NCBI GenBank assembly: GCA_009839745.1
Contig: VXPE01000101.1
Span: forward strand, 1-47,501
Direction: 5' to 3'
Source: Candidatus Poribacteria bacterium
GTDB lineage: Bacteria; Poribacteria; WGA-4E; WGA-3G
DNA: 47,501 bases
Shown here: positions 3,062 to 32,116 of the stretch, one piece after another
How positions within the stretch are numbered: position 1 is the stretch's first letter
How the letters are laid out: every line of letters starts with the position of its first letter
The notes under the pieces: model-generated
Told to the model about the DNA's origin: nothing
Seen by the model: the letters and a program-made list of their open reading frames with translations, nothing else
Database searches by the model: none
Translations under genes and position numbers: made by a program

Positions 3062-4198
3062 TTACTGAAAAAGCGTGAAAAAGGGACCGCGGCACAAAAG
3101 CGTCAAGATAACACCCAAACAGATCATAGGCGCGAACCGCAAAGAGCGTTGGATGCGGATCCTGTTATCGAAATCCTCAAATTTACCATCTTCTGAGAGT
3201 TGTTTCAATTCCGCCGCCTTCTCTTCCGAAACGCTCCCTGGTAAGGTTCCAAGAACAATATTCGGGTTTAACACACTTGGGAGCGCAAAACCTTTCTTGC
3301 TATATGTAATTTCTCCATCGATCCCTTCCACCCTAACAATCTGTTCAGCAGGCACCATGCCCTCTTTCAAATCAGAGATGTCTATCTCGCGATCCAACAC
3401 CATACTGTCGAGATTCTCAATAAAATGCTTCCCAAAGAAGAATACGGTAAGGTAAAGAAGGTATATCTTCAAAAGCGGGGCGTACGCCTCCGACCAAGCA
3501 TTCAGCGTCCAAGGGGTTGTGAGAATCATCAATTGAATCATCACTACGGAAACAACATAGTTACGGATCTTTTCCAGACTGAATTTTTTTACAAAGTAAC
3601 TGAGGGTGAAATACAGAGAAAATACAATCAAGAGTTGATGCCACAATCCCAGTTCAATCCCTAACCAACGCAGCGAGAGGATAACAAACTGCCGTAACCC
3701 AAGCAAAAAGATAAGCCGAAATATCCTCTCAAAAATCTGTTGACGAAAATCTTCCTGTTGGAAAATTAACATAAATGCCTGCCATTTCTGTTGAACATTC
3801 GTTTTCAGACAGAGGTAGGTAACGAGGATCACACAATACGGCACGAAAATATTAATAATCAGGGATGTCGGTGTGTATTGCGCGAATGCCATCGACTCCG
3901 AAAACAATCCCACTGGCATCAATAGAGACGCGCCCCATACCAGTTTGGCATCGCCTGCAGCGAAAATGCCGAACCAATAGAGCACCAGAACGATTAAAAA
4001 ACCACCAACAACCGTAATGATACTGTTTAAGAGGCCGCTGTTCCCTAACATAACCGAAATGCCTTGACTCAGGATGCCGGCGTAGATGAGCCCGTAGCTG
4101 CAAAAATTCTTGATTTTTCTTTCCCGTAAATCTGTATAGGTCGCATAGCAACAGAAAAGTAGAAGAAGACCGATGAACAAATTCTGGTAGTTTAGCAT
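3062..4198 (-). CDS. A24-family prepilin peptidase-like aspartic membrane protease (module 1)
   Basis: This 378-residue polytopic membrane protein carries both catalytic Asp motifs of A24 (prepilin/preflagellin) peptidases: the first in YTDLRERKIKN (about residues 21-31) and the second in FAAGDAKLVWG (GxGD-like, about residue 82). It has no N-terminal methylase domain. After about eight hydrophobic segments comes a soluble piece with LKEGMVPAEQIVRVEG, followed by a last hydrophobic segment. This resembles the C-terminal domain of archaeal-type A24 enzymes. Known members cut class III signal peptides after a Gly on the cytoplasmic face. No pilin gene is present, but the Cys-rich peptides here have Flp-like N-termini, so they are plausible substrates. 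It is 11 bases downstream of a Kelch gene, in the same operon. A second copy lies at 25230-26366. Confidence 0.85.
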   Translation of the reverse strand: MLNYQNLFIGLLLLFCCYATYTDLRERKIKNFCSYGLIYAGILSQGISVMLGNSGLLNSIITVVGGFLIVLVLYWFGIFAAGDAKLVWGASLLMPVGLFSESMAFAQYTPTSLIINIFVPYCVILVTYLCLKTNVQQKWQAFMLIFQQEDFRQQIFERIFRLIFLLGLRQFVILSLRWLGIELGLWHQLLIVFSLYFTLSYFVKKFSLEKIRNYVVSVVMIQLMILTTPWTLNAWSEAYAPLLKIYLLYLTVFFFGKHFIENLDSMVLDREIDISDLKEGMVPAEQIVRVEGIDGEITYSKKGFALPSVLNPNIVLGTLPGSVSEEKAAELKQLSEDGKFEDFDNRIRIQRSLRFAPMICLGVILTLLCRGPFFTLFQ

Positions 4199-4209
4199 TT
4201 TTCAATTCC

Positions 4210-5307
4210 TTAAGGTTGACTTTGAGGTTCCATTTTCAACGCCCCCCATCGCACCGGCAGTTTCCCGACTGCCTCAACCGAACGAAATCCGGTATCATAT
4301 ACCAACACATCTGTAGAATATTCCCAATCTTCTTCGTAACCTCCGAAAACATAAATCTTGCCGTTAACCGCTGCTGTCCCAGAAGGGTTAATGGGCGTTG
4401 GCAGTTCTGGAATATCGTGCCACGCCTGGGTTTGTGGATTATATACATCCACAGTCGCCAAAATCTCAGGAAGCGCATCTTCCCAAATGAAACCGCCAAT
4501 CAAATAGATTTCATTCCTAATAACAACCGGAGAAAAATCAAGTTTGATGTCTAACATATCGTTCTTCTGCTGCCATTGATGGGTTATTGGGTTATATTCC
4601 TCAATAGTCGCAAGATACGGCCCCCCCCTAAAGTCCATTGGCCATCCATATCCGCCGATGACATAAATACGATTGTTGACAACTACCATACCGCCAGGAT
4701 CACGTCGGGTGGGCATTTTAGGACCCTTCGCCCATGTATCTGTCGCAGGATCATAGATTTCAACGCTATCTGTCCGTTCATCGATATTTAAACCGCCAAT
4801 GAGATAGATTTTGTCAGCAACTGCACCAATCCCGAAATTGAGCCAAGGTGTGGGCATGTCCTGTTTCCTCGTCCATGTATCTGTTTGAGAGTCGTAGGCA
4901 TCTACGACAACTGGAAATTTCATATTCGCACGGTTATTGTTTTTTCCACTAAATCCCCCAAAGACATAGATGGTGTCGTTGACTACTGCCGCTTTAGCAC
5001 CTGTGCGTGGCGTTGGCATATTGGCAATTCTCTGCCACCGGTTTCTTTCTGGGTCATACATCTCAACAATTGATAATCCAAAGGGGCCAGGTATTCTTCT
5101 ACCAAGTTTTGCGTCTTCATAGAGACTACCACCGATGAGATAAATCTTATCGTCTACAACAACAGTAGTGAAATCCAGTCGCTTAGTAGGAAGTTGAGAT
5201 ACCAATTCCCAATCCTTACCAGCAAAGGATTCTACTGACATCAGCAAGAGAATAAAAACAACTGTGCTAATAACGACAGTTTTTTTAGAATTGAGTGCGC
5301 TTAACAT
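4210..5307 (-). CDS. Secreted six-bladed Kelch propeller with WGxLK tail
   Basis: The 365-residue protein has a signal peptide (hydrophobic residues about 10-28, likely cut after SFA). Six Kelch repeats follow, each marked by a KIYLIGG-type motif (KIYLIGG, TIYVFGG, KIYLIGG, RIYVIGG, EIYLIGG, KIYVFGG) and by YDPxTDTW-type turns. It should fold as one beta-propeller outside the cytoplasm, probably binding a protein or glycan; no catalytic residues are evident. The C-terminus KLPVRWGALKMEPQSQP has the tail motif shared by other secreted proteins of the window. The start has AAGGAGG upstream. It lies directly downstream of peptide A and 11 bases before the A24 peptidase, so its partner may be peptide A. 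Confidence 0.88.
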   Translation of the reverse strand: MLSALNSKKTVVISTVVFILLLMSVESFAGKDWELVSQLPTKRLDFTTVVVDDKIYLIGGSLYEDAKLGRRIPGPFGLSIVEMYDPERNRWQRIANMPTPRTGAKAAVVNDTIYVFGGFSGKNNNRANMKFPVVVDAYDSQTDTWTRKQDMPTPWLNFGIGAVADKIYLIGGLNIDERTDSVEIYDPATDTWAKGPKMPTRRDPGGMVVVNNRIYVIGGYGWPMDFRGGPYLATIEEYNPITHQWQQKNDMLDIKLDFSPVVIRNEIYLIGGFIWEDALPEILATVDVYNPQTQAWHDIPELPTPINPSGTAAVNGKIYVFGGYEEDWEYSTDVLVYDTGFRSVEAVGKLPVRWGALKMEPQSQP

Positions 5308-5336
5308 TGTAAATTCCTCCTTATGTTGTGAATAGT

Positions 5337-5385: not shown

Positions 5386-5427
5386 GATTCTATGTGGATA
5401 GCCATCTTACATATAAATGGCTACTGG

Positions 5428-5700
5428 TTAACACTCAGGGTCCCCACAATAATAGAAAAGATCACCTTCCGCATCAGTTGCAGAACAGCAGGATACAGCG
5501 GTGGGACACGCGTGAGTCTTTTCTCCATCGCACCATCTCCAATCTGCTTCTGCCTCCGGGGTCAGCATCACTGATGCCAAAATAGCACCCGTCGCCACTG
5601 TCCCTGCGACCAAAGCATTCTTGTGCGCCACATGCCCCTCTTCTTTGACGAAGAAATCACTCAGACGCTGTTTCGTGAGTTGTACTACGTGAGTTTGCAT
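5428..5700 (-). CDS. Cys-rich leader/core peptide A
   Basis: This 90-residue peptide has a conserved leader and a cysteine-rich core. Residues 1-20 are charged (LSDFFVKEEGHVAHKN), residues about 29-46 are hydrophobic (LVAGTVATGAILASVML), then PEAEA gives a signal-peptidase-like AxA site. The predicted core starts near DWRWCDG and holds six Cys in about 38 residues, including a CC pair, ending CGDPEC. The leader is identical in protein, and nearly so in DNA, to peptide B at 7233-7511, while the cores do not align: the pattern of a precursor family with fixed leader and variable core. The start has GAAAGGAGGTGAAATCGA upstream. It sits between two Kelch genes. Its mature function (toxin, signal or ligand for the Kelch protein) is unknown. 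Confidence 0.85.
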   Translation of the reverse strand: MQTHVVQLTKQRLSDFFVKEEGHVAHKNALVAGTVATGAILASVMLTPEAEADWRWCDGEKTHACPTAVSCCSATDAEGDLFYYCGDPEC

Positions 5701-5754
5701 TCGATTTCACCTCCTTTCATCTATCGGATAAACTTACCAAAGCAATGTTCATGC
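5561..5754. repeat. 194-bp duplicated leader and 5' region, copy 1 (peptide A)
   Basis: This stretch, covering the ribosome site, start and leader codons of peptide A, matches 7372-7565 of peptide B with only two mismatches by eye (5569 and the G of CAATGTTC near 5748). Similarity stops sharply where the core begins. This indicates recent duplication or gene conversion limited to the leader. Confidence 0.85.
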
Positions 5755-5875
5755 GATACGCCGTTGAGGACATGGAAAAGCCTAAGAATAAACCTTAAGA
5801 GACAGATTCAACAGTCAACGGCAGTGATTCGCAATTCCATGACTTGGTAAGACCTTGCATGTAATTGAGCATTTT

Positions 5876-6997
5876 TCAATTCCTTAAAAGGGGTGGCGGT
5901 GCTTTGAGTTCCCCCCATCGCACCGGCAGTTTCCCAGTTGCCGTGACGGCACGAAACCCGGTATCAAACACTTCAACGGTTGGAGAAAGTTCCCTATCTT
6001 CTCCACGACCCCCAAAGGCATAAATCTTGCCGTTGACCGCCACTGTAGAAAATGGCAGTTGTAAGGTTGGAGCAGTAGGAATCAAATGCCATCTCTCCGT
6101 AGCCGGATTGTACACTTCAATACTCTCAATCCGATCACCTACTGCAGCACCTCCCGCTTGCACATCAAAACCACCAATGAGATAGATTTTATCCGCAATA
6201 ACAATTGTTGAAAAACCTGATCTCAGACTTGGCATGTCAGGTCTCTTCGTCCACCGGTTGGTTCTCGGTTCATAGACCTCAATGGCCCCAAGATACGGCC
6301 CCCCGTGATTGCCGACTTGCGGCCAGCCTGCCCCACCGATAACATAAATGGTGTCGTCAATAACCGCTGTTCCAATTCCATCACGTCTTGTCGGCATTTT
6401 CGCTCGCTTTGTCCACGTGTCACTAACAGGGTCGTAGACTTCAACGAGATCAAGGCGTCCTTGGTGCCCAGGTTTCCGGTCCTTTGGATGGAGATACCCA
6501 CCAATCGCATAGATTTTGCCAGCGACCACACCAGTGCCGAACCACAGACGGAGAATTGACAAGTCCTGTTTCCGAATCCACGTGTCAGTTTGCGGATCGT
6601 ACATCTCAACGACTTTCAGAAATTTGAAATTCTCACCCCGGTTGTCTTTCCCAGCGTGTCCTCCCATAACGTAGATTTTTCCATCAACAACTGCTGTCTC
6701 AGCACCCGCGCGGACGGTCGGCATATCAGCGAGTCTCTGCCACGTGTTGGTCTCTGGGGCGTAGACCTCGACCAACGACATTCCAAACGGACCGTTTTCA
6801 TGTTCAAAGCGCGTGCCACCGATGAGATATATCTTTCCATCTACCACGGCAGTCGAGAACTCACTTCGATGCGTTGGCAGTTCAGAGATGACCTGCCACT
6901 CGTTCGCAGCAGCATTTTCTATTGCTAAATTATAGAGAACCACAGCAGCTAAGCCAACCAGAACCCATTGTAAGAACTCATGTATTTTTAACAGCAT
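5876..6997 (-). CDS. Secreted six-bladed Kelch propeller with WGxLK tail
   Basis: I start this 373-residue protein at 6997 because TAAGGAGGCATCA precedes that ATG. It opens with a hydrophobic signal segment (about residues 10-27, then ENAAANEWQ). Six Kelch motifs follow (KIYLIGG, KIYVMGG, KIYAIGG, TIYVIGG, KIYLIGG, KIYAFGG), giving a six-bladed propeller. The C-terminus KLPVRWGELKAPPPLLRN carries the shared tail. It is a paralogue of the Kelch proteins at 4210-5307 and 13066-13461. It lies between peptides B and A in a repeating peptide/Kelch arrangement, suggesting each propeller works with the peptide encoded just upstream. Confidence 0.88.
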   Translation of the reverse strand: MLLKIHEFLQWVLVGLAAVVLYNLAIENAAANEWQVISELPTHRSEFSTAVVDGKIYLIGGTRFEHENGPFGMSLVEVYAPETNTWQRLADMPTVRAGAETAVVDGKIYVMGGHAGKDNRGENFKFLKVVEMYDPQTDTWIRKQDLSILRLWFGTGVVAGKIYAIGGYLHPKDRKPGHQGRLDLVEVYDPVSDTWTKRAKMPTRRDGIGTAVIDDTIYVIGGAGWPQVGNHGGPYLGAIEVYEPRTNRWTKRPDMPSLRSGFSTIVIADKIYLIGGFDVQAGGAAVGDRIESIEVYNPATERWHLIPTAPTLQLPFSTVAVNGKIYAFGGRGEDRELSPTVEVFDTGFRAVTATGKLPVRWGELKAPPPLLRN

Positions 6998-7161
6998 TGA
7001 TGCCTCCTTATCAATATCAATGCCAATCAAACGTCAAGGGTGTGAGGAAAAAGAAAAAAACAATGCTTTTCCCAACTTCTTCCTCACAAAATCTGCTCTT
7101 AAGATTGTTCCTTAGCGTCCTTTATTTTATAGGCGGAAAACTTGCGAAAACGAATCTATAT

Positions 7162-7188
7162 CTGATTGTGCCTTTAAGACACAATCAG
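7162..7188. repeat. Perfect 9-bp stem-loop between peptide B and Kelch gene
   Basis: CTGATTGTG (7162-7170) pairs with CACAATCAG (7180-7188) around a 9-base loop. It occupies the space between the peptide B stop and the Kelch start, as the hairpin at 5337-5385 does for peptide A. No T-run follows on the minus strand, so full termination is unlikely. Confidence 0.55.
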
Positions 7189-7232
7189 GTAAGACCTCTT
7201 TACCACATCCGCCTACGCAGGACGGCCATCTC

Positions 7233-7511
7233 TTATATATCGACGCAGAAATAGAACGGCTCACCGTCTCCGTGGAAACCGGAGCGACAATCCTGATCAG
7301 CCTTTCGACACCAGACGAAATTGTCTTCTTCACCACACTTAAACCTATGATGAGCCTCAGCGGTATCAGGTGTCAGCATTACTGATGCCAAAATAGCACC
7401 CGTCGCCACTGTCCCTGCGACCAAAGCATTCTTGTGCGCCACATGCCCCTCTTCTTTGACGAAGAAATCACTCAGACGCTGTTTCGTGAGTTGTACTACG
7501 TGAGTTTGCAT
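7233..7511 (-). CDS. Cys-rich leader/core peptide B
   Basis: This 92-residue peptide has the same first 48 residues as peptide A, with the Flp-like LSDFFVKEEGHVAHKN start and a hydrophobic stretch. PDTAEAHH then gives a likely AxA cut. The core from HHRFKCGEE holds four Cys (one CRKADQDC pair) and many acidic and aromatic residues, and is unrelated to the peptide A core. The ribosome site GAAAGGAGGTGAAATCGA is identical to that of peptide A. It is the first peptide downstream of the module 1 glycosyltransferase pair, so it is the most direct candidate substrate of those enzymes. Confidence 0.85.
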   Translation of the reverse strand: MQTHVVQLTKQRLSDFFVKEEGHVAHKNALVAGTVATGAILASVMLTPDTAEAHHRFKCGEEDNFVWCRKADQDCRSGFHGDGEPFYFCVDI

Positions 7512-13012: not shown

Positions 13013-13065
13013 AAAAATCTCCAGTTTCTCCAAGTTTAGGCAGTTGTAAACGATTGTAATTCTTT

Positions 13066-14441: not shown

Positions 14442-17345
14442 TTATTCCTCCGCAAGCGATATCTGAAATATTCCGCGATCTTTAGTGGCACTATAGAGTC
14501 TGCTGTTAATTATATTAAGAGAGACAACTTCACCTGGCACTTCTGAAGCAAACTGTCTCCAGCGTCCATCAGTATCCAACCCATAAATCCCCATATCTCC
14601 AGCACCGTAAACTCTGGGACCCGTCACAGCGAAATGATTCATAGTAAAGTGGTTTATAATAATAGGTGTACCTGACCTATCCATTATTACGCGCCAGTGT
14701 TCCCCAGTTTCTGAAACTAAGACCCCTGTGTCTGTCGCGACGTAAACCGTTGATCCCACAAAAACGATCTCTTTGAACGAAGTAAAGTGAAGTGGTAGAT
14801 TGGGTGTAACATCCCTCCAATTACTTCCTTCGTCAAGCGATTGAAACAGTCTACCGTGCCCTTGCCCGACATAGAGTATCTTTCCCGAAACGGCTAACTT
14901 AAATCCCTCATCGAAGAAATTGTCATGAGACGGCTTAACAATGTCTACTAACCCTGTGTCCTTCCACGCTGAATCACCAAATTTCCATTTAAAAAGTCTA
15001 CGATTGTATCCCGCATAGAACACATCACCGCTAATTGCAAACGCCTCGACTCTCGTCCATTTCTCAATAGGAGGCAATGCAGCCTTTGTCAAGCGATCTT
15101 CACCCATTATCTCACTATCAATAGCAGGGACATCTTGAACTGGAATCATCGTATTACCTTCTCCAGATAAACGGAAAATGTGCAAGTGATTTTTTTCAGG
15201 GGAAATAAAATAGAGCATCCCACTATCAATCACAAACTTTGCATAGAGATTGGCATAAATATAAGCACCATCATCTTTCACTGATTTACGAGAGACCTCT
15301 TCAGTACCAATACGGACTTTTTTCCAAGACATGCCTTGGTTGATCGATTGATATACCTCATAGGTAGTATATGCGTATAGCCTATTGTTGAACACAACTA
15401 AATCATATATCCTTGTTCCCAGCACTCCGTCCATAAATATATGCCACGATTCGCCACCATCCGTTGTGCGATGAATACCGAAAGCACCAACTTTGTAAAA
15501 CGTCTCATCGTTCACCGCCGCAGCGGGTAAACTATTGAGCATGTATAAATTCGTGTCAATTCCAAGATTTGTCCAAGTGTCGCCGCCATCCATTGAACAT
15601 AAATTCGTGGCACCGAGTGCTAAGAGCGTTTCATCTGTCACCAAAAGTTTTACACCCGATGGGAGTGCTGATGGACGATATTTAGGTGTTATCTCAGTCC
15701 ATGATGCTCCCAAGTCAATTGATCGATAAATCCTACCTGAACTCGGTTCACTCCTTGGCATTATTGAACTTGCATCCATTGGCGTTAATCCAACTAGATC
15801 GGGTCCCATTCCAACGTAGAGATTCCTATTAAGCACTGCCAAGGAGTAGACAGATTTTGATGTGTCTACTGGTAATTTCCTCCAAATACTTGAATCCAGA
15901 CGATAGAGACCGCGGTTGGTACCGGTAAACACCGTCTTCCCAACAGCGATGATTGCTGAAATCCTTTCACTTCCTAAGCCATCGTTAAGTGATTCCCACT
16001 CAATTCCGCCGTCTATGGATCGGAAAATCCCCTCATCCCTAAGCGCGAGATACATTATGATATCTGATTCTATGTTTGGATCTTCTATCGCATCAATGAT
16101 GATGAATCCAACAGTATCACCCTTTGGTCGGACACAAAACGCACGCCATGTCTCACCTTTATCTACTGACGCAAATATTTCATTTGTAGAAACAATATAG
16201 AGGGTTCCGCGATTCTCCACCATCGGCATCAGGGATTTATCTATCGGAATACTCGTGCTCAGATACCGCCATGTGGTTGCCTCTGTCTCTAATTTGTACA
16301 TGCCCTCTCTTGAAATAGCAAAGGTAGTCCCATCAGAAACGGTGTAAATATCGTGCACCTTACCACTAGGAGGACTATCTATTTGTCCCCACTGCGTAGT
16401 AGAAAACGTGCGTAGATCTTCTTCAGAGTATGTCCTTAGTGTTACCTCAGAAAACTGTGCCCCAGCACCTATACTTTTCCCAGGTAGAATAGCTCGACCA
16501 AACCGGTTTTGTATAGATGGCTTTGATATAACATCAAGAACGATCGGTGCATCAACAATCTCAATCGTAGGTTCCGATGCTGCTTCAAAACTATACGGCT
16601 TTTGGAAGCGGGCAAAATATTGATAACTCGCACCCAGCAGGAACATAACCAAAATTGTTGCCGCGCCGAAAGATAGCCACGGTACTAACGGTTTGCCAGC
16701 CGGTGGAACTGCCGGGTTAATATCGGCGACTTGCCGCATAATCCGCGCTGTTAAATCAGCAGGTAACTGTACGCTTCCGAGCACTTCGCTCACCAAGGAT
16801 TCTGCTTCCTGTAGGCGTTCGCGCCCTCGACGCAGACGACTTTTAATTGTGTTTACCGACACACCTAAAAAGTTACCTATCTCCTTCGTCGTCATCTCGC
16901 TGAGATAGTGAAGGGTCAACACTGTCCGTTCGCTTTCCGGCAGTTTTTCCAAAAGTGATTTGACAACCTCAGAACGATGCTCAGCGGTTTCTGTCTCGTG
17001 TGTCTCTGTCAAATAATGCGTATAGGAGGATTCATCTATCTCTTCCAAGGATGTATCTTCCAGCGACTGCATCGCCGGTTTATGCCTCTGAATCCAATTA
17101 AGTGTCAGTCGATGCGCAATCACATACAACCATCCTGCAAAGGACTTAGGATCTTTCAAGGTCCCAAGTTTTTTGTATACTTGGAGAAAAACATCTTGGG
17201 TTAGTTCTTCGGCATAGTGAAAATCTCCTATCTTTCGCCAGATAAGCGCGTGAACCCCCTTTTGATGCCTTTCGACCAAGATGTTGAATGCCGAATCATC
17301 ACCTGATAATATCCTGTGTATTAATTTAACATCGTCTTCTAACAT
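14442..17345 (-). CDS. Membrane-tethered ECF sigma factor fused to a large BNR/Ycf48-like propeller sensor
   Basis: This 967-residue fusion has sigma region 2 (about 10-90, with YAEELTQDVFLQVYKKL and WLYVIAHR), region 4 (about 125-180, with LPESERTVL and KEIGNFLGVSVNTIKSRLRRG) and one membrane helix (about 222-243). About 700 extracytoplasmic residues follow with repeated BNR/Asp-box signatures such as SxDxGxxW (SVDKGETWRAF, SIDGGIEWESL, SMDGGDTWTNL, TTDGGESWHIF, SLDEGSNWRDV). The likely model is a sigma factor held at the membrane and released by proteolysis when the propeller senses a ligand. It lies downstream of peptide C in module 2, where other modules have a secreted propeller, so the peptide may be its ligand. 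Start with GGAGGTTATGG upstream. It lacks the WGxLK tail. Confidence 0.85.
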   Translation of the reverse strand: MLEDDVKLIHRILSGDDSAFNILVERHQKGVHALIWRKIGDFHYAEELTQDVFLQVYKKLGTLKDPKSFAGWLYVIAHRLTLNWIQRHKPAMQSLEDTSLEEIDESSYTHYLTETHETETAEHRSEVVKSLLEKLPESERTVLTLHYLSEMTTKEIGNFLGVSVNTIKSRLRRGRERLQEAESLVSEVLGSVQLPADLTARIMRQVADINPAVPPAGKPLVPWLSFGAATILVMFLLGASYQYFARFQKPYSFEAASEPTIEIVDAPIVLDVISKPSIQNRFGRAILPGKSIGAGAQFSEVTLRTYSEEDLRTFSTTQWGQIDSPPSGKVHDIYTVSDGTTFAISREGMYKLETEATTWRYLSTSIPIDKSLMPMVENRGTLYIVSTNEIFASVDKGETWRAFCVRPKGDTVGFIIIDAIEDPNIESDIIMYLALRDEGIFRSIDGGIEWESLNDGLGSERISAIIAVGKTVFTGTNRGLYRLDSSIWRKLPVDTSKSVYSLAVLNRNLYVGMGPDLVGLTPMDASSIMPRSEPSSGRIYRSIDLGASWTEITPKYRPSALPSGVKLLVTDETLLALGATNLCSMDGGDTWTNLGIDTNLYMLNSLPAAAVNDETFYKVGAFGIHRTTDGGESWHIFMDGVLGTRIYDLVVFNNRLYAYTTYEVYQSINQGMSWKKVRIGTEEVSRKSVKDDGAYIYANLYAKFVIDSGMLYFISPEKNHLHIFRLSGEGNTMIPVQDVPAIDSEIMGEDRLTKAALPPIEKWTRVEAFAISGDVFYAGYNRRLFKWKFGDSAWKDTGLVDIVKPSHDNFFDEGFKLAVSGKILYVGQGHGRLFQSLDEGSNWRDVTPNLPLHFTSFKEIVFVGSTVYVATDTGVLVSETGEHWRVIMDRSGTPIIINHFTMNHFAVTGPRVYGAGDMGIYGLDTDGRWRQFASEVPGEVVSLNIINSRLYSATKDRGIFQISLAEE

Positions 17346-17623: not shown

Positions 17624-17884
17624 TTAACTATCATCAACACACTCAGATTCCCACTGTTGACAGGTTCCGTCATCATCGTACTCTTCACACCACGCTCTAC
17701 ACCAGCCATACGGCCCACAATCATCATGGGTTTGACATGATGCTTCTGCAGGTGGAGCATACATCATCTGCGATAACAAAAGGACCCCACCGGCTACACC
17801 CAAAGTTAACGGCGCCCGTATACCGACCCGTCCACTTTCAGATGTAAGAAACCGTTTCGCTCTATCGCGTGTCTCTTTTTTCAT
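17624..17884 (-). CDS. Cys-rich leader/core peptide C (module 2)
   Basis: The 86-residue peptide starts with a charged segment ending in RFLTSESGRVGIRAPLTLG, similar in pattern to Flp-type pilin N-termini and to peptides D-F. A hydrophobic stretch (about 27-42) is followed by APPAEASC, an AxA-type site with Cys right after. The core has six Cys (SCQTHDDCG, WCRAWCEEYDD, GTCQQWESECVDDS) and is strongly acidic. AAAGGAGGTAAATCCGA precedes the ATG. It follows the module 2 GT pair and precedes the membrane-bound sigma/propeller fusion. The AEASC end could be mistaken for a lipobox, but the usual Leu three residues before the Cys is missing. Confidence 0.82.
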   Translation of the reverse strand: MKKETRDRAKRFLTSESGRVGIRAPLTLGVAGGVLLLSQMMYAPPAEASCQTHDDCGPYGWCRAWCEEYDDDGTCQQWESECVDDS

Positions 17885-17929
17885 TCGGATTTACCTCCTT
17901 TCCGCCGGATTTACATCCAGCCAAATTAA

Positions 17930-17951
17930 TTTTCCAAACTGAGTTGGAAAA
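17930..17951 (-). promoter_or_regulatory. Hairpin in the 5' leader of peptide C
   Basis: TTTTCCAA and TTGGAAAA form a perfect 8-bp stem with a 6-base loop, 46 bases upstream of the peptide start. It is the counterpart of the TTCCCAAC/GTTGGGAA stem before peptides D, E and F. A CCGG-containing segment near 17904-17909 sits where those leaders have a second stem. Confidence 0.5.
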
Positions 17952-18020
17952 CCTATTCCAACATCAAAGACCTACTTGAAAATCAGGCGTAGAGGTCCTT
18001 TGCTGGAAATACTCGAAAAC

Positions 18021-23812: not shown

Positions 23813-24784
23813 CTATTCTCGTTTCAGTTTTCCCCAGAGTGTCGTCAGCAATTGGGGTTGTGGTGAAACTGGCAACGCATACGCCGGATCAAACCAATCC
23901 CCAAGATGATTCGAGCCAACATGCGTGAGTTGTTCCGACTGCCCACCATCTAAGTTAACTTTGAAGATGTGGAAACTCTTAAGTCCAACAAACCGTTTAT
24001 AGAGCAGGGCATCACCACGTGGAGACCAAACGACTGAAGTCGCTCTCGGACCCGCTTCATCAATAATTTGGGTAACGCCTGTTCCATCACGATTCACTGT
24101 ATAAATCGTCTCTTTCTCAACGAAGTCTTTAAGTGGCACCCGATGCAGCCAAGAAAATGCCAACTTGTCTCCTGTTGGAGACCACTTCACGCCAGGTAGC
24201 CATGACGGTATCGCCTTGGCTGGAAAAAGGGGTTTCTGGTTGCGCGTACGGAGGTTGAAGAGCGTTATTTGCATCTTTTCTGCCCACCCCGTGATAAGGG
24301 CAAGTTCCATTCCATCTGGCGACCATGTCGCAGGCCCCCCAATTGCGATGCGTTCCTCATCTTCTTCACCGAGTGTTGCAACATGGACCACCTGTTCATC
24401 ACGTATGATACGCGAGTAAGCGATCTGTTTTCCATCTGGCGACCACGCGGGTCCTACTCTGAGTGCCTCCTTCCCAAACACTCGCTTCACATTTTCTCCA
24501 TCTGGATCCATGAGGTATAGGTCCCAAGCGCCATCTCGGTCAGAGACGAAAAGGATCTGTTCACCTATTGGCGACCAGACGGGTGTAATATTCTGTGAGC
24601 GATGGTGCGTTATTTTTACCTGCTGGCTGCCATCTGGATTCATGAGATAAATATCACGAGTCCCTTCACGGTCTGCCCAAAACGCGATTTTAGCGGTTTT
24701 CGGGGCTTCTGCCCAAATAGAGCAAAGTCCGTATAAAAATGTTAAACTGAAAGTGGAAAATAAAAATAAAAGTCGAGGCACCAT
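23813..24784 (-). CDS. Secreted TolB/PD40 propeller with WGxLK tail (module 3, unit D)
   Basis: Beginning at the ATG at 24784 (GGAGGAAATTCTC upstream), this 323-residue protein has a signal peptide (hydrophobic about 4-20, cut near WAEA) and PD40 repeats with the usual 'PxWSPDGxxIxxxS' and 'DIYLMNPDG' elements (VWSPIGEQILFVSDRDG, AWSPDGKQIAYSR, TWSPDGMELALI, KWSPTGDKLAFSW, VWSPRGDALLYKR). It should form one periplasmic or surface propeller. The end QPQLLTTLWGKLKRE carries the shared tail. It follows peptide D and is a paralogue of 27383-28354 and 28989-30002. Confidence 0.88.
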   Translation of the reverse strand: MVPRLLFLFSTFSLTFLYGLCSIWAEAPKTAKIAFWADREGTRDIYLMNPDGSQQVKITHHRSQNITPVWSPIGEQILFVSDRDGAWDLYLMDPDGENVKRVFGKEALRVGPAWSPDGKQIAYSRIIRDEQVVHVATLGEEDEERIAIGGPATWSPDGMELALITGWAEKMQITLFNLRTRNQKPLFPAKAIPSWLPGVKWSPTGDKLAFSWLHRVPLKDFVEKETIYTVNRDGTGVTQIIDEAGPRATSVVWSPRGDALLYKRFVGLKSFHIFKVNLDGGQSEQLTHVGSNHLGDWFDPAYALPVSPQPQLLTTLWGKLKRE

Positions 24785-24845
24785 GAGAATTTCCTCCAAA
24801 ATTAGACATAGGCGTTTAAAAACTATAGTACAAAGCAGCAGAAAT

Positions 24846-24869
24846 ATGTGGCAGTTTTCACTGCCACAT
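24846..24869. repeat. Perfect 10-bp hairpin between peptide D and PD40 gene
   Basis: ATGTGGCAGT and ACTGCCACAT enclose TTTC. The core TGTGGCAGT..ACTxCCACA recurs at 30053-30082 in the matching place after peptide F, so the element is conserved between units. Confidence 0.6.
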
Positions 24870-24932
24870 TCTGAAATGTCTGGAAGGCCAATTAGTTGGC
24901 ATCGACTTCCCAGACAATGGTTGAGTTATTAA

Positions 24933-25058
24933 CTATGCATCCCGACAAGTGCCAAGATCACACACCTGACCTGCCGGGCAAGGGACACCACCACCACCTA
25001 CCTTACCTTCCTCAGACGCGAGGAAGGTTCGGATTCTGCCTTGAATACTATCTTTCAT
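24933..25058 (-). CDS. Cys-rich mini-peptide D lacking the hydrophobic segment (41 aa)
   Basis: This frame is too short for most gene finders. It encodes MKDSIQGRIRTFLASEEG, then KVGGGGVPCPAGQVCDLG and TCRDA. Residues 1-21 match the leader of peptides E and F (IREFVQSEEGKVG), but the hydrophobic segment and AxA site are missing: the leader runs through GGGG straight into a 3-Cys core. AAGGAGAAAAACAAT precedes the ATG. The upstream region keeps the hairpins seen before peptide E, and a PD40 gene follows as in the other units. Either the peptide stays cytosolic, or it leaves by a double-Gly-type route, or the gene suffered a deletion of about 25 codons. Confidence 0.75.
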   Translation of the reverse strand: MKDSIQGRIRTFLASEEGKVGGGGVPCPAGQVCDLGTCRDA

Positions 25059-25075
25059 ATTGTTTTTCTCCTTTC

Positions 25076-25182
25076 TGCCGGTGCTTCTGTTCCGGCAAGA
25101 TTGGATTCCCAAACAGTGCTGGGAATACCATTTCCAGGGCGAATACTATCGCTGTAGGAGTGAAGCCCTCCCCCTGGACATG
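25076..25182 (-). promoter_or_regulatory. Structured 5' leader of peptide D
   Basis: Three nested elements match the leader of peptide E: TGCCGG/CCGGCA (25076-25097), a TTCCC..GGGAA stem (about 25106-25125), and a long-range stem CATTTCCAGGG/CCCTGGACATG (25129-25139 with 25172-25182) with one mismatch. The innermost stem ends just before the ribosome site. Confidence 0.55.
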
Positions 25183-25229
25183 CTTTCTAATATCTTGTCA
25201 AAAGGTTCATCATCCTTGTTGGTTATATG

Positions 25230-26366
25230 TTACAGAAACTGCATCAGTTTCAGATAAAATGGACCTTGGCAAAGTACCGTTAGTATGGCACCGACAGAAA
25301 TGACCGGGGCAAAGCGTATCGAGGGTTGGACGTTTATCTGATTGCCGAATTCAGCAAACGCACCTTCCTCCGCAAGGTTTTGTAACTGGAAAATCTCTTC
25401 TGCGGTTAGACCTACGGGATCAGGTGAAATAACGATATTATCCTTCTGGCCGCTCGAAAAATCCACCTGCTTCTTTTCGTAGCGGACACTGCCATCGGGC
25501 TGTTCTACCCTCACAATTTGCTCAGCGGGAATCATTCCAACCTCAAGACCATTCACGTCCACGACCTTGTCCAAGGTTATACTCGCTAAACTGAGAATCA
25601 ACTGTTTGGCAATAACAAAAACGACGAGATACAGTCCTAAGAAAAAGGCGAAACCGGAGAGAAATACCGATACAGATGGTGTCGCTTGCAGTGCCAACCC
25701 AACAGATGTGAAACCAATGATTAAGTAATAGGCGGGTGTTTTCGGGAACGGCGATAGTAATTTTTGGATCAATGTGAATGCCACCAAAACTAAAACGAGA
25801 TGCAGCAATCGATCAGGTTTCCACTCAAACTGCTGGAACAAGTAGGTTAACCCGGATCCAATACCGATAAACATAAGGAGGCTAAATAGCTTTTCGAGCA
25901 GTGTATTCTTTTGAAAGTAAGACTTAAAGAAATACCGGAACAGATTTAATTTGTTTGGCATTAGGGCAAACTTGAAAAGCAGATAACCGAGGATCCCTAT
26001 TGAGTATGGAACAATAATATTGAGGGCAAGTATCAGGGGTGGGAAACTTAAGGCACCGCTGAGGTTTCTAAACAGGGACAGCGGAAAAATTAAGCAGAGT
26101 CCCCAAAAGAGTTTGGAATCCCCTGGCGAGAAAATACCAAACCAATAGAAAGCAAAAGCGATAAGCCCGCCCCCAAAGAAGAGTCCTAAGATGTAGAGCG
26201 GCGTTGTTGTACCAAGATACCACGCCATCAATTGGCTGAGCGTCCCCACATAAAGCAGTCCGAGGGAGCAGAAATTGCGAATCTTCTGCGTCTTCAGATC
26301 AGTGTAACTCGCATATCCACAGAAAACGAGTGCTAATAAAATCAGAAAGTATTCATAGTGTGACAT
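25230..26366 (-). CDS. A24-family prepilin peptidase-like aspartic membrane protease (module 3)
   Basis: The 378-residue protein is a paralogue of 3062-4198 and has the same length. Catalytic Asp motifs are YTDLKTQKIRNF (about 21-32) and FSPGDSKLFWG (about 82). Several membrane helices are followed by a soluble C-terminal domain with GLEVGMIPAEQIVRVEQ and a last hydrophobic stretch. No methylase domain is present. It lies just upstream of peptide D and 19 bases downstream of the methyltransferase gene. Two modules have both the peptidase and Cys-rich peptides with Flp-like N-termini, while no pilus assembly gene is in the window. This favours a dedicated leader peptidase. Confidence 0.85.
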   Translation of the reverse strand: MSHYEYFLILLALVFCGYASYTDLKTQKIRNFCSLGLLYVGTLSQLMAWYLGTTTPLYILGLFFGGGLIAFAFYWFGIFSPGDSKLFWGLCLIFPLSLFRNLSGALSFPPLILALNIIVPYSIGILGYLLFKFALMPNKLNLFRYFFKSYFQKNTLLEKLFSLLMFIGIGSGLTYLFQQFEWKPDRLLHLVLVLVAFTLIQKLLSPFPKTPAYYLIIGFTSVGLALQATPSVSVFLSGFAFFLGLYLVVFVIAKQLILSLASITLDKVVDVNGLEVGMIPAEQIVRVEQPDGSVRYEKKQVDFSSGQKDNIVISPDPVGLTAEEIFQLQNLAEEGAFAEFGNQINVQPSIRFAPVISVGAILTVLCQGPFYLKLMQFL

Positions 26367-27382: not shown

Positions 27383-28354
27383 CTACTTCCGTTTGAGTTC
27401 TCCCCATAGTGTCGTGAGCAGCTGGGGTTGTGGCAAGACAGGTAGCGCAAACTCTGGATCAAACCAACCGCCCACATAATTCCATCCCTCATGGGTGAGT
27501 TGGACCGGCTTCCCGCCGTCCAAGGCGACTTTGAAGATGTGTAGTTCCCTGTTAACAAGTTGTGTATAAAGGAGTTGGGTGCCATCCGGAGACCAGGTCG
27601 GGTCGGCAGCTCTTGTTGTAAGGTCCCCCACGATCTCTTGCGGATCTGTACCATCGCGGTTCACAATGTAAATTGCCTCTTCCCTGAAGCCGTCAATGTG
27701 CCAAGAGAAAGCGAGTTTATCGCCATTTGGGGACCATGCGGGACCCCGAACCCACATCGGTTCCTTGGGGAAAGGGAAGAATGTTTGTCTTTTCGTTCGC
27801 ACCTTGAGCAAACTGAAACGTCTCGGTTTGTCCAATGCGCCGCTGCGAAAGATGATTTCTGTGCCATCGGGAGACCATGCCGGTGTGTAACCAATCGCCA
27901 CACGCTCCTCATCTTTTCCATCGATGGTGCCAATATAGAGCAAAGTGTTGCCAATTTCTCCATAACTGTAGGCGATGCGTTTGCCATCGGGAGACCATGT
28001 GGGACCCGTTCGTCTCTTCCATTTGTCAAACACCTTTTGTACATTAGAGCCATCTGGTTCCATGAGATACAAATCCCAAGTCCCCCATGCCTTCTGCTCA
28101 CGATTAGATGCGAAAAGGATGTGTTCACCTGTTGGCGACCAAACTGGATAAATATCGTCTGCGCGATGATTGGTTAGATTCACCTTCTCGCTGCCATCAG
28201 GATTCATGAGATAGATGTCCCGAGTCTCTCCTATACTGGCTTTGGCAAACACAATCTTTGCCGTATCTGGTGCCTTTGCGAAAACAGCACACACTTTCCA
28301 ACACAACACGGATACACTGAGCAAACAAAAAAGAAACTGGACCTTATATTTCAT
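27383..28354 (-). CDS. Secreted TolB/PD40 propeller with WGxLK tail (module 3, unit E)
   Basis: The start at 28354 is chosen because AAGGAGGTATTTCTC precedes it; upstream in-frame codons have no ribosome site. The 323-residue product has a signal peptide (QFLFCLLSVSVLCWKVC, cut near FAKA) and PD40 repeats (VWSPTGEHILFASNRE, TWSPDGKRIAYSYG, AWSPDGTEIIFRS, AWSPNGDKLAFSW, TWSPDGTQLLYTQ). It ends QPQLLTTLWGELKRK. It has the same architecture as the neighbouring PD40 genes and follows peptide E by about 200 bases, an intercistronic stretch that holds the hairpin GCGTCTG/CAGACGC at 28435-28451. Confidence 0.88.
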   Translation of the reverse strand: MKYKVQFLFCLLSVSVLCWKVCAVFAKAPDTAKIVFAKASIGETRDIYLMNPDGSEKVNLTNHRADDIYPVWSPTGEHILFASNREQKAWGTWDLYLMEPDGSNVQKVFDKWKRRTGPTWSPDGKRIAYSYGEIGNTLLYIGTIDGKDEERVAIGYTPAWSPDGTEIIFRSGALDKPRRFSLLKVRTKRQTFFPFPKEPMWVRGPAWSPNGDKLAFSWHIDGFREEAIYIVNRDGTDPQEIVGDLTTRAADPTWSPDGTQLLYTQLVNRELHIFKVALDGGKPVQLTHEGWNYVGGWFDPEFALPVLPQPQLLTTLWGELKRK

Positions 28355-28554
28355 GAGAAATACCTCCTTAACGGGAATGAGCCACGGAGAAGTATGGACG
28401 CGGTTTTGATAGTGTATCCCTATACTGCCCTTCAGCGTCTGAGGCAGACGCACTTTCAAAGCGCGCCGCCTCATTGGTTCGTTAATATTCGTCAGAAATA
28501 ATCAGTGACGAAGAAGGCAAACGCCTCTCGTCCTAACCGTTTCTAAGAGTAATA

Positions 28555-28776
28555 TTAACTTGGATGACAACTGCCGTGATCATGGCAGTAATATCCAGGA
28601 TCGCATTCGGATGAGTGACAACATGGACGTGCCTCAGCATGGGGCACCCCAACGATAGCCTGTGCGAGCAGAACACTCCCCACCGCCGCACCGAGCGTCA
28701 GGGGGGATTTTATCCCAACCTTGCCTTTCTCAGACTGGACGAACTCGCGGATTTTACCGCGAAGATTCTTTTTCAT
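28555..28776 (-). CDS. Cys-rich leader/core peptide E
   Basis: The 73-residue peptide starts at 28776 (AAGGAGAAAAACTGAG upstream). Its leader, KIREFVQSEKGKVGIKSPLT, is followed by a hydrophobic stretch (LGAAVGSVLLAQAIVG) and PHAEARP, an AxA-type cut. The core has five Cys (RPCCHSSECDPGYYCHDHGSCHPS) in a CCx4Cx5CxxxxxC-like pattern plus several His, which might bind metal. The leader DNA is nearly identical to that of peptide F (30134-30367), the core is not. A remnant of a GT gene 3' end lies directly upstream, showing how this unit was copied. Confidence 0.85.
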   Translation of the reverse strand: MKKNLRGKIREFVQSEKGKVGIKSPLTLGAAVGSVLLAQAIVGVPHAEARPCCHSSECDPGYYCHDHGSCHPS

Positions 28777-28794
28777 CTCAGTTTTTCTCCTTTC

Positions 28795-28901
28795 TGCCGG
28801 TGCTTCTCTTCCGGCAAGATTGACTTCCCAACCGTAGGTGGGAAAGCCATTTCCAAGGCGAATCACTTCGCAGTGGAAGTAGAGCTCTTCCCTTGGAAAT
28901 G
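28795..28901 (-). promoter_or_regulatory. Structured 5' leader of peptide E
   Basis: Three stems: TGCCGG/CCGGCA (28795-28816), TTCCCAAC/GGTGGGAA (28825-28844, one mismatch) and a perfect 11-bp long-range pair CATTTCCAAGG/CCTTGGAAATG (28848-28858 with 28891-28901). The same three occur before peptide D. The first stem abuts the ribosome site, so folding could control translation. Confidence 0.6.
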
Positions 28902-28985
28902 CTTAAAAACTGCCTCGACTTCAGCAGGTGTATGCTGTTCCGCCAACATTTCTAAAAAAGCAGTTTGAAGGCAGTCAAGTTTCAA
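28863..28985 (-). pseudogene. Remnant of a glycosyltransferase 3' end
   Basis: Just after the PD40 stop at 28989, in the same frame, the DNA encodes CLQTAFLEMLAEQHTPAEVE and AVFKHFQGKSS before a TGA. This matches the last 35 or so residues of the GT at 30467-32116 (CLETALVEMLAEHHTPTEVK, TVFKHF). The remainder of the GT is gone. It marks the left boundary of a duplicated segment that carried the GT 3' end plus the peptide. Confidence 0.75.
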
Positions 28986-28988
28986 ATA

Positions 28989-30002
28989 CTATCTCTTTTT
29001 TATATCTCCCCATGTAGTTGTAAGCAGCTGTGGTTGTGGTGATACCGGCAATGCATACGCTGGGTCAAACCAATCCCCGCCAGCATTCGCTTGAATGCTA
29101 CCCCCAAGATGCGTCAGCTGCGTCCGAATCCCGCTGTTTACATCAACTTTGAAGATTTGGAACCGACCCTTAATTTCCTGTGTATAGAGAACTTCATCTC
29201 CATTTGGCGATAACGCTGGATACTGGGCATAGGGACCTGCTTCTTTAACGAGCTGCTGGAGACCGGTGCCGTCGCGATTGACGATGTAGATCGTTTGCTT
29301 TGCCTTCCATGCGTTATGAAGATCCGCATCCAAGATGGGGGGTAGCGGATGCTTGTTCCCAGTAAAGGCAAGTCTGTCTCCCGCAGCAGACCAAGAAGGA
29401 TCGTATTGCCAAATCAGTGCTTTTATTATGGGTAGCGGTTTTTCCTGCGCTCGTGTCTGGACGTTGATAAATGTCAGTTGAGAGGCGAATGGCTGGTCTA
29501 CAGAGTAGGCAATTTCAGTGCCATCGGGCGACCATGCGGGATACCAGCCTTCCGCAATATGTTCATCCTCTTGTTCCCCAAGGCGCGCAATGCGGATATC
29601 AGAATTAAGAGTATTCCACTGCCTGTTCACATAAGCGATGTGTTTGCCATCTGGCGACCATGTTGGACTGCTTCTATAAATTTTTGTTTTTCGCTTGAAG
29701 ACGCGTCGAACGTTGGTTCCATCTGGGTCCATCAGGTAAAGGTCTCGCTCGCCGCCGCGATCGGAGATGAAAAGAATCTTTTCACCGGTAGGTGCCCAGA
29801 CGGCTTGCAGATCATTTCCAGGATGTTGTGTGAGTCTGACCTGTTCGCTGCCATCTGGGTTCATGGTGTATATTTCTCTGTTTCCGTCGCGTGCAGAGGT
29901 GAACAAAATTTTAGGGGTCGTCGGTGCTTTTGCGAAAAGCGGAGTGCCGTTCGGACATAGTAGTATCACACTAAGCATGTAAGAGATGAATATGCGTTTC
30001 AT
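28989..30002 (-). CDS. Secreted TolB/PD40 propeller with WGxLK tail (module 3, unit F)
   Basis: With the ATG at 30002 (CGGAGGAATACAG upstream) the product has 337 residues, a signal peptide (KRIFISYMLSVILLCPNG, cut near FAKA) and PD40 repeats (VWAPTGEKILFISDRGG, TWSPDGKHIAYVNR, AWSPDGTEIAYSV, SWSAAGDRLAFTG, ALSPNGDEVLYTQ). It ends QPQLLTTTWGDIKKR, a variant of the shared tail. It is the first propeller gene after the module 3 GT pair and peptide F. Confidence 0.88.
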   Translation of the reverse strand: MKRIFISYMLSVILLCPNGTPLFAKAPTTPKILFTSARDGNREIYTMNPDGSEQVRLTQHPGNDLQAVWAPTGEKILFISDRGGERDLYLMDPDGTNVRRVFKRKTKIYRSSPTWSPDGKHIAYVNRQWNTLNSDIRIARLGEQEDEHIAEGWYPAWSPDGTEIAYSVDQPFASQLTFINVQTRAQEKPLPIIKALIWQYDPSWSAAGDRLAFTGNKHPLPPILDADLHNAWKAKQTIYIVNRDGTGLQQLVKEAGPYAQYPALSPNGDEVLYTQEIKGRFQIFKVDVNSGIRTQLTHLGGSIQANAGGDWFDPAYALPVSPQPQLLTTTWGDIKKR

Positions 30003-30052
30003 CTGTATTCCTCCGAAATTTCTCAGGAGACCTAATAAACTCAGCATATGGG

Positions 30053-30082
30053 AGTGTGTGGCAGTAGAAACTACCACACACT
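30053..30082. repeat. Hairpin between peptide F and PD40 gene
   Basis: AGTGTGTGG (30053-30061) pairs with CCACACACT (30074-30082); an inner GTAG/CTAC pair can extend the stem around AAA. It shares the TGTGGCAGT..CCACA core with the hairpin after peptide D at 24846. Confidence 0.55.
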
Positions 30083-30133
30083 GAAAAGTCAATAAGGTTG
30101 TGACGGTCTACGCCACAGCCTATATTGACGGTA

Positions 30134-30367
30134 TTAAACACATGTCCCCTCTCCATCAACGAAAGGACCAACACATCTCTTACCATCCGGGCATTGACCG
30201 TCATCTTTGCATCTTTCGCATGCGTCGGCGGGTATTGTTCCCACGATAGCCTGTGCGAGCAGAACACTCCCCACCGCCGCACCGAGCGTCAGTGGGGATT
30301 TGACTCCCACTTTGCCTTCCTCGGATTGGACGAATTCGCGGATTTTACCGCGGAGATTTGTTTTCAT
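30134..30367 (-). CDS. Cys-rich leader/core peptide F
   Basis: The 77-residue peptide has the leader KIREFVQSEEGKVGVKSPLT, a hydrophobic segment (LGAAVGSVLLAQAIVG), then TIPADACER, a possible AxA-type cut next to the first Cys. The core contains five Cys in ACERCKDDGQCPDGKRCV and GEGTCV, the widespread 'CxxDxxCxxGxxC' disulfide pattern. GAGGAGGTGAACAGAA gives a near-ideal ribosome site. It lies 99 bases after the GT pair and before a PD40 gene, as in the other modules. Confidence 0.85.
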   Translation of the reverse strand: MKTNLRGKIREFVQSEEGKVGVKSPLTLGAAVGSVLLAQAIVGTIPADACERCKDDGQCPDGKRCVGPFVDGEGTCV

Positions 30368-30390
30368 TTCTGTTCACCTCCTCTCTTTCT

Positions 30391-30439
30391 ACCGGAAATC
30401 TCACCCCGGCGGAATGTGCTTCCCAACTGTAGTTGGGAA
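30391..30439 (-). promoter_or_regulatory. Structured 5' leader of peptide F
   Basis: TTCCCAAC/GTTGGGAA forms a stem at 30420-30439, and an imperfect ACCGG..CCGGC pair lies at about 30391-30410, beside the ribosome site. These match two of the three stems before peptides D and E. The region separates the GT stop from the peptide start. Confidence 0.5.
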
Positions 30440-30466
30440 ACCACCTCCAACAGGAAACACACTTCA

Positions 30467-32116
30467 TCAAGAAGCAGAAGTTTCTCGTCGGAAATGCTTA
30501 AAAACTGTCTTGACTTCAGTAGGGGTATGATGTTCCGCTAACATTTCTACCAAAGCGGTTTCAAGACAATCATATCTGTTGGTTCCAATTCGGTACACGT
30601 TAGATGTCGTGTCTCCGGTCCCTGGATTATATCGACGGCAGAAAACTGATGGGAGCAAAGTTCTTTGCCTGTTGGATACATTCACACTTGGTTTCCGATG
30701 ACCCTCTTCAATGGACCGGACAGTTTCTTGTGCTACTTTTTCCCAAGTGAATTTTTGCGCCAAACGCTTTGCGGCGGTTTCACATTCGGCGCGTGTATGA
30801 GAAGGTTTTAACCACTGATTTACCACGTTGGACAACTCAGGCATCGGGACGCGGAAATTACCGCCTCCACGCCATTCCGATTTCACGACAGTACCAGCAC
30901 CCTCGACCTCTGGAGGCAGTCCATATTTCGTCAGAGCGACACATGGTGTGCCGTCCGCCATCGCCTCTAAAACCAACGAAAGTGGTGTTCCCGGAATCGC
31001 AGGGAAACAGACAAGATCAAGTGCCTGAAAGAAAATAGGGAGAACCGAACGGGTCTCCTCATCATTTGCACTAAAAATTACCACATTGTCTGGCGGATTT
31101 TTATAATATTCCGCTAAAAATGAATCGTAGACAAAAATCGCAAGATGTGGATTGGCATGAGCGAACGCAGAAACCAGTTCCGCCCCAAAGTTGGGTTCAA
31201 ATCCAGAAATCAATCCTACAACGGGCTGTTGTGAAAACATCGGTTTTTCAAAGAGAGTGGCGGTATATTGCTTCGCCAGCGGTTTGCCTATAGGTTCACC
31301 AACGTTGATACCGTTCGGAATAACGCTGACACCCTCTCCCGGAACACCATATTCCGTCAGCCAGTCCTTTACCCATGAAGATCTGACGATTAGCGTGTCG
31401 TTTGCGTTTTGGAGGGCATAGATATTTAGAAGCGTTTCAAGTGTTGAACCTTGTAACTTCTGAACATCTTCTATACAGTGAACAATTGGCACACCGGGAA
31501 GCTGATAGTATAAGAGATCATCTGTCAAAAATTGAGAGAGGAGTAGGATACCATCGTATCCATTCATTGCATACCAAGATGGAGTGAAAGCACTGCTTTT
31601 TTCTGTCTCTATATCCCGAATCCGGATATTCCCATAACCTTGAAAGTCCTGCGGTTTTGAGTCTTCTTCTCCTGCTTTGGAAAAAGTAAGGGTTTCCAAG
31701 TCTGCGAATTGCGTCAAGTGCGTCAGGAGTTGATAGCGATTCAGATTTGTTGTATGGTCCAGAGATGTTTTCTCGTTTGTAAAGTGGAACGGCACCAACA
31801 ATTTCGGTTTCCCATCCTTCTGTTTCCAACTGTCTGTATCCCGTTTCGCGGCTCCATCTATTGCGCTTAAAAGGGAGCCTTTCTGTCCAAGCCGTTCCAA
31901 ACGTTCAATCCCGTCGAAGATAGACTCGACTTTATATTCTTGCTTGAGTGCCTCAACGATTTGGTATTGCGTCTGTGTGCCATAGCGACTTAGAATTTCC
32001 CATTCTACATCGTTGAGTTGAACGATATCATTCGTTTCAAGATCTGCGACATATTTCCGACCCTCTTGTTCAAATTTACGGTGTCGGTTCAGGCGGTAGT
32101 GAGCGTGAAGTGTCAT
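30467..32116 (-). CDS. RRE/PqqD-like domain fused to degenerate GT-B glycosyltransferase (module 3, second of pair)
   Basis: The 549-residue protein has a PqqD/RRE-like domain (HRKFEQEGRKYVADLETN, EWEILSRYG, KGSLL, about 10-85) and a GT4-like body with GVSVIPNGINVGEPIGKP. PGTPLSLVLEAMADGTP replaces the EX7E motif, with Gly for the first Glu, as in the other second-position enzymes. The shared C-terminal segment is ALVEMLAEHHTPTEVKTVF. It is clearly homologous to 18234-19916 at protein and DNA level. TGGAGGCGAATAGACT precedes the ATG, 21 bases after the upstream GT. It may bind the acceptor rather than transfer sugar. Confidence 0.82.
   Translation of the reverse strand: MTLHAHYRLNRHRKFEQEGRKYVADLETNDIVQLNDVEWEILSRYGTQTQYQIVEALKQEYKVESIFDGIERLERLGQKGSLLSAIDGAAKRDTDSWKQKDGKPKLLVPFHFTNEKTSLDHTTNLNRYQLLTHLTQFADLETLTFSKAGEEDSKPQDFQGYGNIRIRDIETEKSSAFTPSWYAMNGYDGILLLSQFLTDDLLYYQLPGVPIVHCIEDVQKLQGSTLETLLNIYALQNANDTLIVRSSWVKDWLTEYGVPGEGVSVIPNGINVGEPIGKPLAKQYTATLFEKPMFSQQPVVGLISGFEPNFGAELVSAFAHANPHLAIFVYDSFLAEYYKNPPDNVVIFSANDEETRSVLPIFFQALDLVCFPAIPGTPLSLVLEAMADGTPCVALTKYGLPPEVEGAGTVVKSEWRGGGNFRVPMPELSNVVNQWLKPSHTRAECETAAKRLAQKFTWEKVAQETVRSIEEGHRKPSVNVSNRQRTLLPSVFCRRYNPGTGDTTSNVYRIGTNRYDCLETALVEMLAEHHTPTEVKTVFKHFRRETSAS

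Follow-up and report, generated by a model that had tools for sequence, protein, structure and literature searches.

The window (the whole 47,501-nt stretch analysed, contig C101 of a 5.04 Mb source genome assembled in 141 contigs) carries on its minus strand a short ORF between a gene for a peptidase-like membrane protein (A24-long) and a beta-propeller gene:

23813..24799, minus strand: PD40 beta-propeller protein gene, next gene after the 41-aa ORF (Pfam PF07676, E=6.5e-16)
24933..25058, minus strand: 41-aa ORF, read from its translation and the intact orthologue in sister genome G019 as a probable in-frame deletion derivative of a gene for a type-1, putatively exported Cys-rich peptide
24994..24998, minus strand: deletion junction with a 3-nt GTG overlap, where 93 nt (31 codons) present in G019 are absent
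25058..25189, minus strand: RNA leader of the 41-aa ORF, built of three conserved stems and running up to the Shine-Dalgarno/start (model R1, 129 bits; covariation; z -3.5)
25230..26366, minus strand: A24-long, archaeal-type prepilin-peptidase-like membrane protein directly upstream of the 41-aa ORF (PF01478, 27.1 bits vs a cut-off of 26.5)

The ORF encodes MKDSIQGRIRTFLASEEGKVGGGGVPCPAGQVCDLGTCRDA*, with three Cys. The initial annotation gave no strand and described a peptide with a leader and without a hydrophobic segment, and such a peptide is indeed encoded: its best 15-residue hydropathy was 0.63, compared with 1.45–2.24 in intact members of the family. Residues 1–21 resemble the leaders of other peptides in the window, as had been noticed, with 13/21 identical to the peptide at 30134–30367, and the type-1 leader block S-E-x-G-(K/R)-V occurs as SEEGKVG at residues 15–21. 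The surrounding signals reported for the gene are also in place. AAAGGAG lies just 5' of the ATG, the PD40 gene follows, and directly upstream is a structured RNA that scored E=7e-30 with R1, a model built in this analysis from a training set that includes this same copy. The hydrophobic segment expected after a type-1 leader and the AxA expected 30–31 residues past its Gly are both deleted. Two strong hairpins lie in the spacer between the peptide and PD40 genes (24800–24932), which shares 97% identity with G019, against 83% for PD40 itself. The peptide has a local CPxGQxCxxGxC-like spacing as in TIGR04201 (Myxo_Cys_RPT), but it scored 17.9 bits against a cut-off of 25 and contains one partial repeat only.

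A 93-nt in-frame deletion relative to G019

G019 belongs to another species in the same genus. Its DNA is collinear and ~83–92% identical around the locus, and the gene is intact there (MKDSIQGRIRTFLASEEGKVGVKGPLTVGMATGSVLFAQTIIGAPQADACPCGGGVPCPAGQVCDLGTCRDA), with the A24 gene upstream and the PD40 gene downstream as in the window. This match, 99% identical outside one deletion, makes the ORF more than a chance reading frame. The intact product runs from MKDSIQ...SEEGKVG through 31 residues comprising the hydrophobic segment, an AxA signal-peptidase site, and two Cys, and then continues as GGGVPCPAGQVCDLGTCRDA. The window copy differs from it by exactly one 93-nt in-frame deletion, plus one substitution in the remaining 126 nt. 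The breakpoint has four possible placements, corresponding to the 3-nt GTG overlap, and the 31 lost codons covered the hydrophobic segment and AxA site as well as Cys 1 and 2 of the core. The deletion is the derived state, since the segment is present in the orthologue and in every intact paralogue; an intact orthologue at exactly this site was found in one genome (G019) among those compared.

The alignment changes how two features of the peptide are read. The GGGG described as leading into a 3-Cys core is present, but it joins leader Gly21 to the GGG of the core, so only the first Gly belongs to the leader. The core GGG is ancestral and recurs in related cores (ADACQCNGGIPC, ADACGGGIPC). The count of three Cys is likewise correct, but they derive from a 5-Cys core whose first two Cys were lost.

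We consider the 41-aa gene most probably an allele of a normal family member that recently suffered an internal deletion (probability roughly 0.88). The comparison shows that a single in-frame loss joined codon 21 of the leader to the Gly-rich beginning of the core and left the RNA leader, Shine-Dalgarno, start, stop, and downstream PD40 gene intact. Under this interpretation, the gene would still be transcribed and translated, and the peptide would probably be made but not exported; it would not insert into the membrane, would stay in the cytoplasm, and most likely would lack the original function. Of the two explanations offered by the initial annotation, a deletion mutant is strongly supported by the exact 93-nt loss and by the hydrophobic segment in every intact paralogue found. 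The other, a natural minimal precursor showing which part of the leader is needed, is unsupported, as a conserved hydrophobic-less homologue was not found. The suggested search of related genomes did return one further hydrophobic-less copy (G027:C49:896-979), a separate decayed remnant in which the leader is fused to the PD40 spacer and the invariant Gly has become Asp (SEED). Restoration of the segment at this site in other strains had been named as the observation that would refute the finding, and G019 provides it, though from a different species. Read as a broken gene, the 41-aa peptide gives no basis for arguing which part of the leader suffices.

Between the source genome and G019, identity was 99.2% in the peptide gene, 95.5% in its 5' region, 97.0% in the following spacer, and 83.1–92.3% in neighbouring genes. 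The high identity of the surviving 126 nt would likewise be expected if the truncated form were under constraint, if gene conversion had occurred, or if the deletion were very recent. A rival reading is that the truncated peptide has acquired a cytoplasmic role kept by selection, for instance regulating the A24-long encoded just upstream or serving as its decoy without being exported; this high identity, the retained leader with its E-x-G, the RNA leader, and the intact ribosome site are in its favour. We regard this reading as very improbable: the UTR and intergenic DNA share the high identity, which is therefore unspecific to the short peptide, the Cys number is odd, and the form occurs once, the G027 copy being an unrelated remnant. 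An assembly or strain-mixture artefact, with the cell carrying an intact gene, has similarly slim prospects. The genome is fragmented, with the window forming one of its contigs, and the many paralogues could confuse assembly, but the 3-nt junction overlap is far below any assembly k-mer, the sequence on either side of the junction matches one and the same gene, that of the G019 orthologue, and the frame is kept. Finally, the family recalls RiPP precursors in its conserved leader, variable short Cys core, and many paralogues, but differs in its Sec-type export features, and we rejected a RiPP/double-glycine leader since the GGGG was created where the deletion joined its ends and the window proteins scanned against Pfam (part of the window genes) included neither a RiPP-modifying enzyme nor a C39 peptidase.

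The type-1 peptide family and its RNA leader

Intact type-1 peptides have a leader of 17–19 aa ending in S-E-x-G, followed by K/R-V-x-x-K-x-P-L, a hydrophobic run, AxA, and a core whose Cys number is mostly 4 or 6. AxA lay 30–31 residues past the Gly in 78/84 intact members (12.8 expected), and the Cys number was even in 72/84, compared with 3 in the window copy. E-x-G was found in 84/84 type-1 leaders, a proportion partly built in by a search pattern that demanded most of this block. A PD40-like gene, recognised by motif count, directly followed the type-1 gene in 61/83 cases. The family was present in 32/85 Poribacteria genomes and 3/22 genera, with ~18 further relatives of the leader in the source genome. 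Three paralogues lie in the window, two of them followed by PD40 genes:

17624..17884, minus strand: divergent type-1 paralogue (86 aa, 6 Cys; sequence)
17885..18018, minus strand: RNA leader of paralogue 17624–17884 (73.3 bits)
27383..28474, minus strand: PD40 gene after paralogue 28555–28776 (Pfam scan)
28555..28776, minus strand: intact type-1 paralogue (73 aa; sequence)
28777..28908, minus strand: RNA leader of paralogue 28555–28776 (139.9 bits)
28989..30092, minus strand: PD40 gene after paralogue 30134–30367 (Pfam scan)
30134..30367, minus strand: intact type-1 paralogue (77 aa; sequence)
30372..30503, minus strand: RNA leader of paralogue 30134–30367 (97.8 bits)

Among 87 type-1 leader ORFs in the surveyed regions, leaving aside a spurious 17-aa row, 84 had the hydrophobic segment, two were frameshifted, and the window copy was the only in-frame one without it. 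Judged from these sequences, copy decay is usual in the type-1 family, and the window copy may be one casualty of birth-and-death evolution.

Other loci, additional to these 87, showed different kinds of loss. On contig C45 of the source genome (241–414, region 241–531), a paralogue lacks approximately leader residues 1–11 and has its 5' region fused to SEEGKVG, a deletion complementary to that of the window copy. In G030 the peptide gene is gone and the RNA leader stands directly before the PD40 gene (L122 3725-3853).

Two large genes on the minus strand of the window lie downstream of or among Cys-rich peptide genes. Downstream of the peptide at 17624–17884, 14442–17345 encodes a 967-aa protein in which ECF-type sigma-70 regions 2 and 4 are joined to a BNR/sortilin-like propeller region. 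Amid Cys-rich peptide genes, 11024–13033 encodes a 669-aa protein with cytochrome c554, GILT, and DsbA-like matches, for which disulfide or thiol chemistry is possible.

Nearly every type-1 gene was preceded by the RNA leader. Three stems are backed by an alignment of 40 leaders, in which 91.5% of cells were paired and 14/23 pairs had changed on both sides, counting stem 2, which was added by hand to the stems 1 and 3 that RNAalifold gave alone. The covariation exceeded all 500 shuffles, and slid controls were 23–53% paired. The covariance model found 17 copies in the source genome, each at a peptide gene, and copies in 25/38 genomes of the genus, nearly all at peptide genes. The position of the RNA suggests that it controls translation or stability. 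Rfam gave no match to the leader (tRNA only in the window scan, nothing credible at lax thresholds), and a known riboswitch was rejected on that ground. An upstream ORF is probably not an attenuator-type leader peptide: its end, '...TPAEVEaVFKHFQ', resembles the C-terminus of a glycosyltransferase-type neighbour and is broken in many copies. In several RNA leaders this coding end ('...HTPAEVEaVFKHFQ'; 30372–30541 in the window, and upstream of many leaders) extends into stem 1; upstream of others it persists as broken fragments. A weak copy of the RNA leader (42.6 bits) also stands directly before an A24-long gene (G016:C133:34757-34912), which suggests shared control of peptidase and peptides.

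A24-long proteins and four leader types

The A24-long protein encoded upstream of the 41-aa ORF has both Asp motifs (YTDLKT, SPGDSK), and its match to PF06819 (Arc_PepC) is below the cut-off (E=0.0014). Among 13 A24-long proteins scanned, several of them partial, 8 matched PF01478 and 10 matched the archaeal C-terminal domain at E<=0.01. The A24-long proteins are like archaeal-type A24 peptidases (PF01478 + PF06819) in matching both domains, though weakly, and unlike them in being bacterial, multi-copy, ~380–400 aa long, and clade-matched to small peptide families. No solved structure was found by sequence search, and the AlphaFold model was poor (mean pLDDT 51).

Across 38 genomes of the genus, A24 genes comprised 37 canonical (~265 aa) and 67 others, mostly ~380–400 aa. 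A peptide gene lay within 10 kb of 52/67 A24-long genes vs 0/37 canonical A24 genes (Fisher 4e-16), leaving 15/67 A24-long genes without one. In a tree of 44 long A24 proteins, the leader type of the neighbouring peptides followed the clades, with 5 label changes vs 19.4 when shuffled (0 of 200); the labels comprised 22 type 1, 9 type 2, and 2 type 3, a few rows were hand-set from neighbours that the pattern or window had missed, and near-copies among the proteins favour such clustering.

Besides type 1, three other leader blocks contain E-x-G: type 2 (KE[ED]GHVAHK), type 3 (GEEGKVGSQ), and type 4 (SETGSVGVK). Types 1–3 recover one another by sequence search. E-x-G was present in all type-2 (n=9), type-3 (n=4), and type-4 (n=3) leaders read, and these types were found next to other A24-long genes, which gives E-x-G independent support. 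A fourth A24-long clade has three members with type-4 peptides just downstream, so the type-4 pairing rests on three loci; the type-4 products are short proteins with almost no Cys (L203 3679-3897, L207 2910-3194, L208 3080-3352). The initial annotation's separation of the leader from the hydrophobic segment was useful to this extent: every leader type closes with the invariant E-x-G and is linked to an A24 peptidase-like protein of its own. The window also holds a parallel type-2 cluster (3062–7511, minus strand) of one A24-long, two peptide genes, and two Kelch propellers:

3062..4198, minus strand: second A24-long, type-2 clade (sequence and tree)
4210..5307, minus strand: Kelch beta-propeller after type-2 peptide 5428–5700 (domain scan)
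5428..5700, minus strand: type-2 peptide (90 aa, leader MQTHVVQLTKQRLSDFFVKEEG; sequence)
5876..7030, minus strand: Kelch beta-propeller after type-2 peptide 7233–7511 (domain scan)
7233..7511, minus strand: type-2 peptide (92 aa; sequence)

A candidate export pathway for small Cys-rich peptides

For the intact family, we propose that the leader (17–26 aa, ending in E-x-G) would be recognised and cut after the Gly by the cognate A24-long on the cytoplasmic side, a step that we favour with some reserve. The hydrophobic segment would direct Sec/SRP insertion, and signal peptidase I may then cut after AxA, so that a disulfide-rich core is released or exposed and could act extracellularly with the beta-propeller protein encoded next to it.

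Class III (type IV pilin/Flp) signal peptides are among the closest known systems. They end in Gly and carry Glu5, with many archaeal exceptions, and Glu5 is dispensable for processing (review, PMC4471445). The intact family is alike in its hydrophilic leader, whose 17–26 aa fall within the 6–26 aa that define type IV pilin leaders (PMC4471445), in the invariant terminal Gly followed by a hydrophobic segment, and in a dedicated, linked A24-family membrane aspartic-peptidase-like protein that has both Asp motifs, as seen in the linkage and clade match above. It is unlike in other respects. The +5 residue is Lys instead of Glu5 (95/100 leaders read; rarely Gln/Arg) and +1 is usually Lys/Arg/His, so A24 cleavage here would be atypical. 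No 21-residue hydrophobic tract directly follows the Gly; about seven mostly polar residues precede the hydrophobic run, and a signal-peptidase-I-like AxA comes after it. The Cys-rich domain is tiny, and no traffic ATPase accompanies the system: none was found near the peptide clusters, and the one T2SSE over the cut-off in the source genome (C45:78419) stands on a contig where the nearest peptide gene is ~75 kb away.

An alternative account treats the peptides as normal substrates of Sec and signal peptidase I whose n-region is unusually long, with the A24-long protein acting on another target in these clusters. The fixed spacing of AxA in 78/84 members, the lack of Glu5, the polar stretch after the Gly, and the clusters without a nearby pilus ATPase are all in its favour. 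It does less well with an E-x-G common to four leader types, including the short, almost Cys-less type 4 that is without the TPxAEA motif, and with leader types that track A24-long clades. We hold this account to be a serious though less probable alternative to cleavage by A24-long.

We found nothing matching in the literature on this Poribacteria peptide family, its peptidase, or its RNA. Taken as a whole, the proposal that sponge-associated Poribacteria have an undescribed export system stands at about even odds. In such a system, leader-matched relatives of archaeal-type prepilin peptidases would cut E-x-G leaders off small, rapidly diversifying Cys-rich peptides. The peptides would act extracellularly alongside a beta-propeller partner, and the system would be controlled by its own structured RNA leader. 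The four leader types, set against four A24-long clades, offer a candidate enzyme-substrate pairing that is directly testable in a laboratory host. If true, the proposal would widen the role of A24 peptidases beyond pilins to include small exported Cys-rich peptides, and it would provide a first handle on the multi-copy surface or secreted peptide repertoire of a major uncultured sponge-associated phylum.
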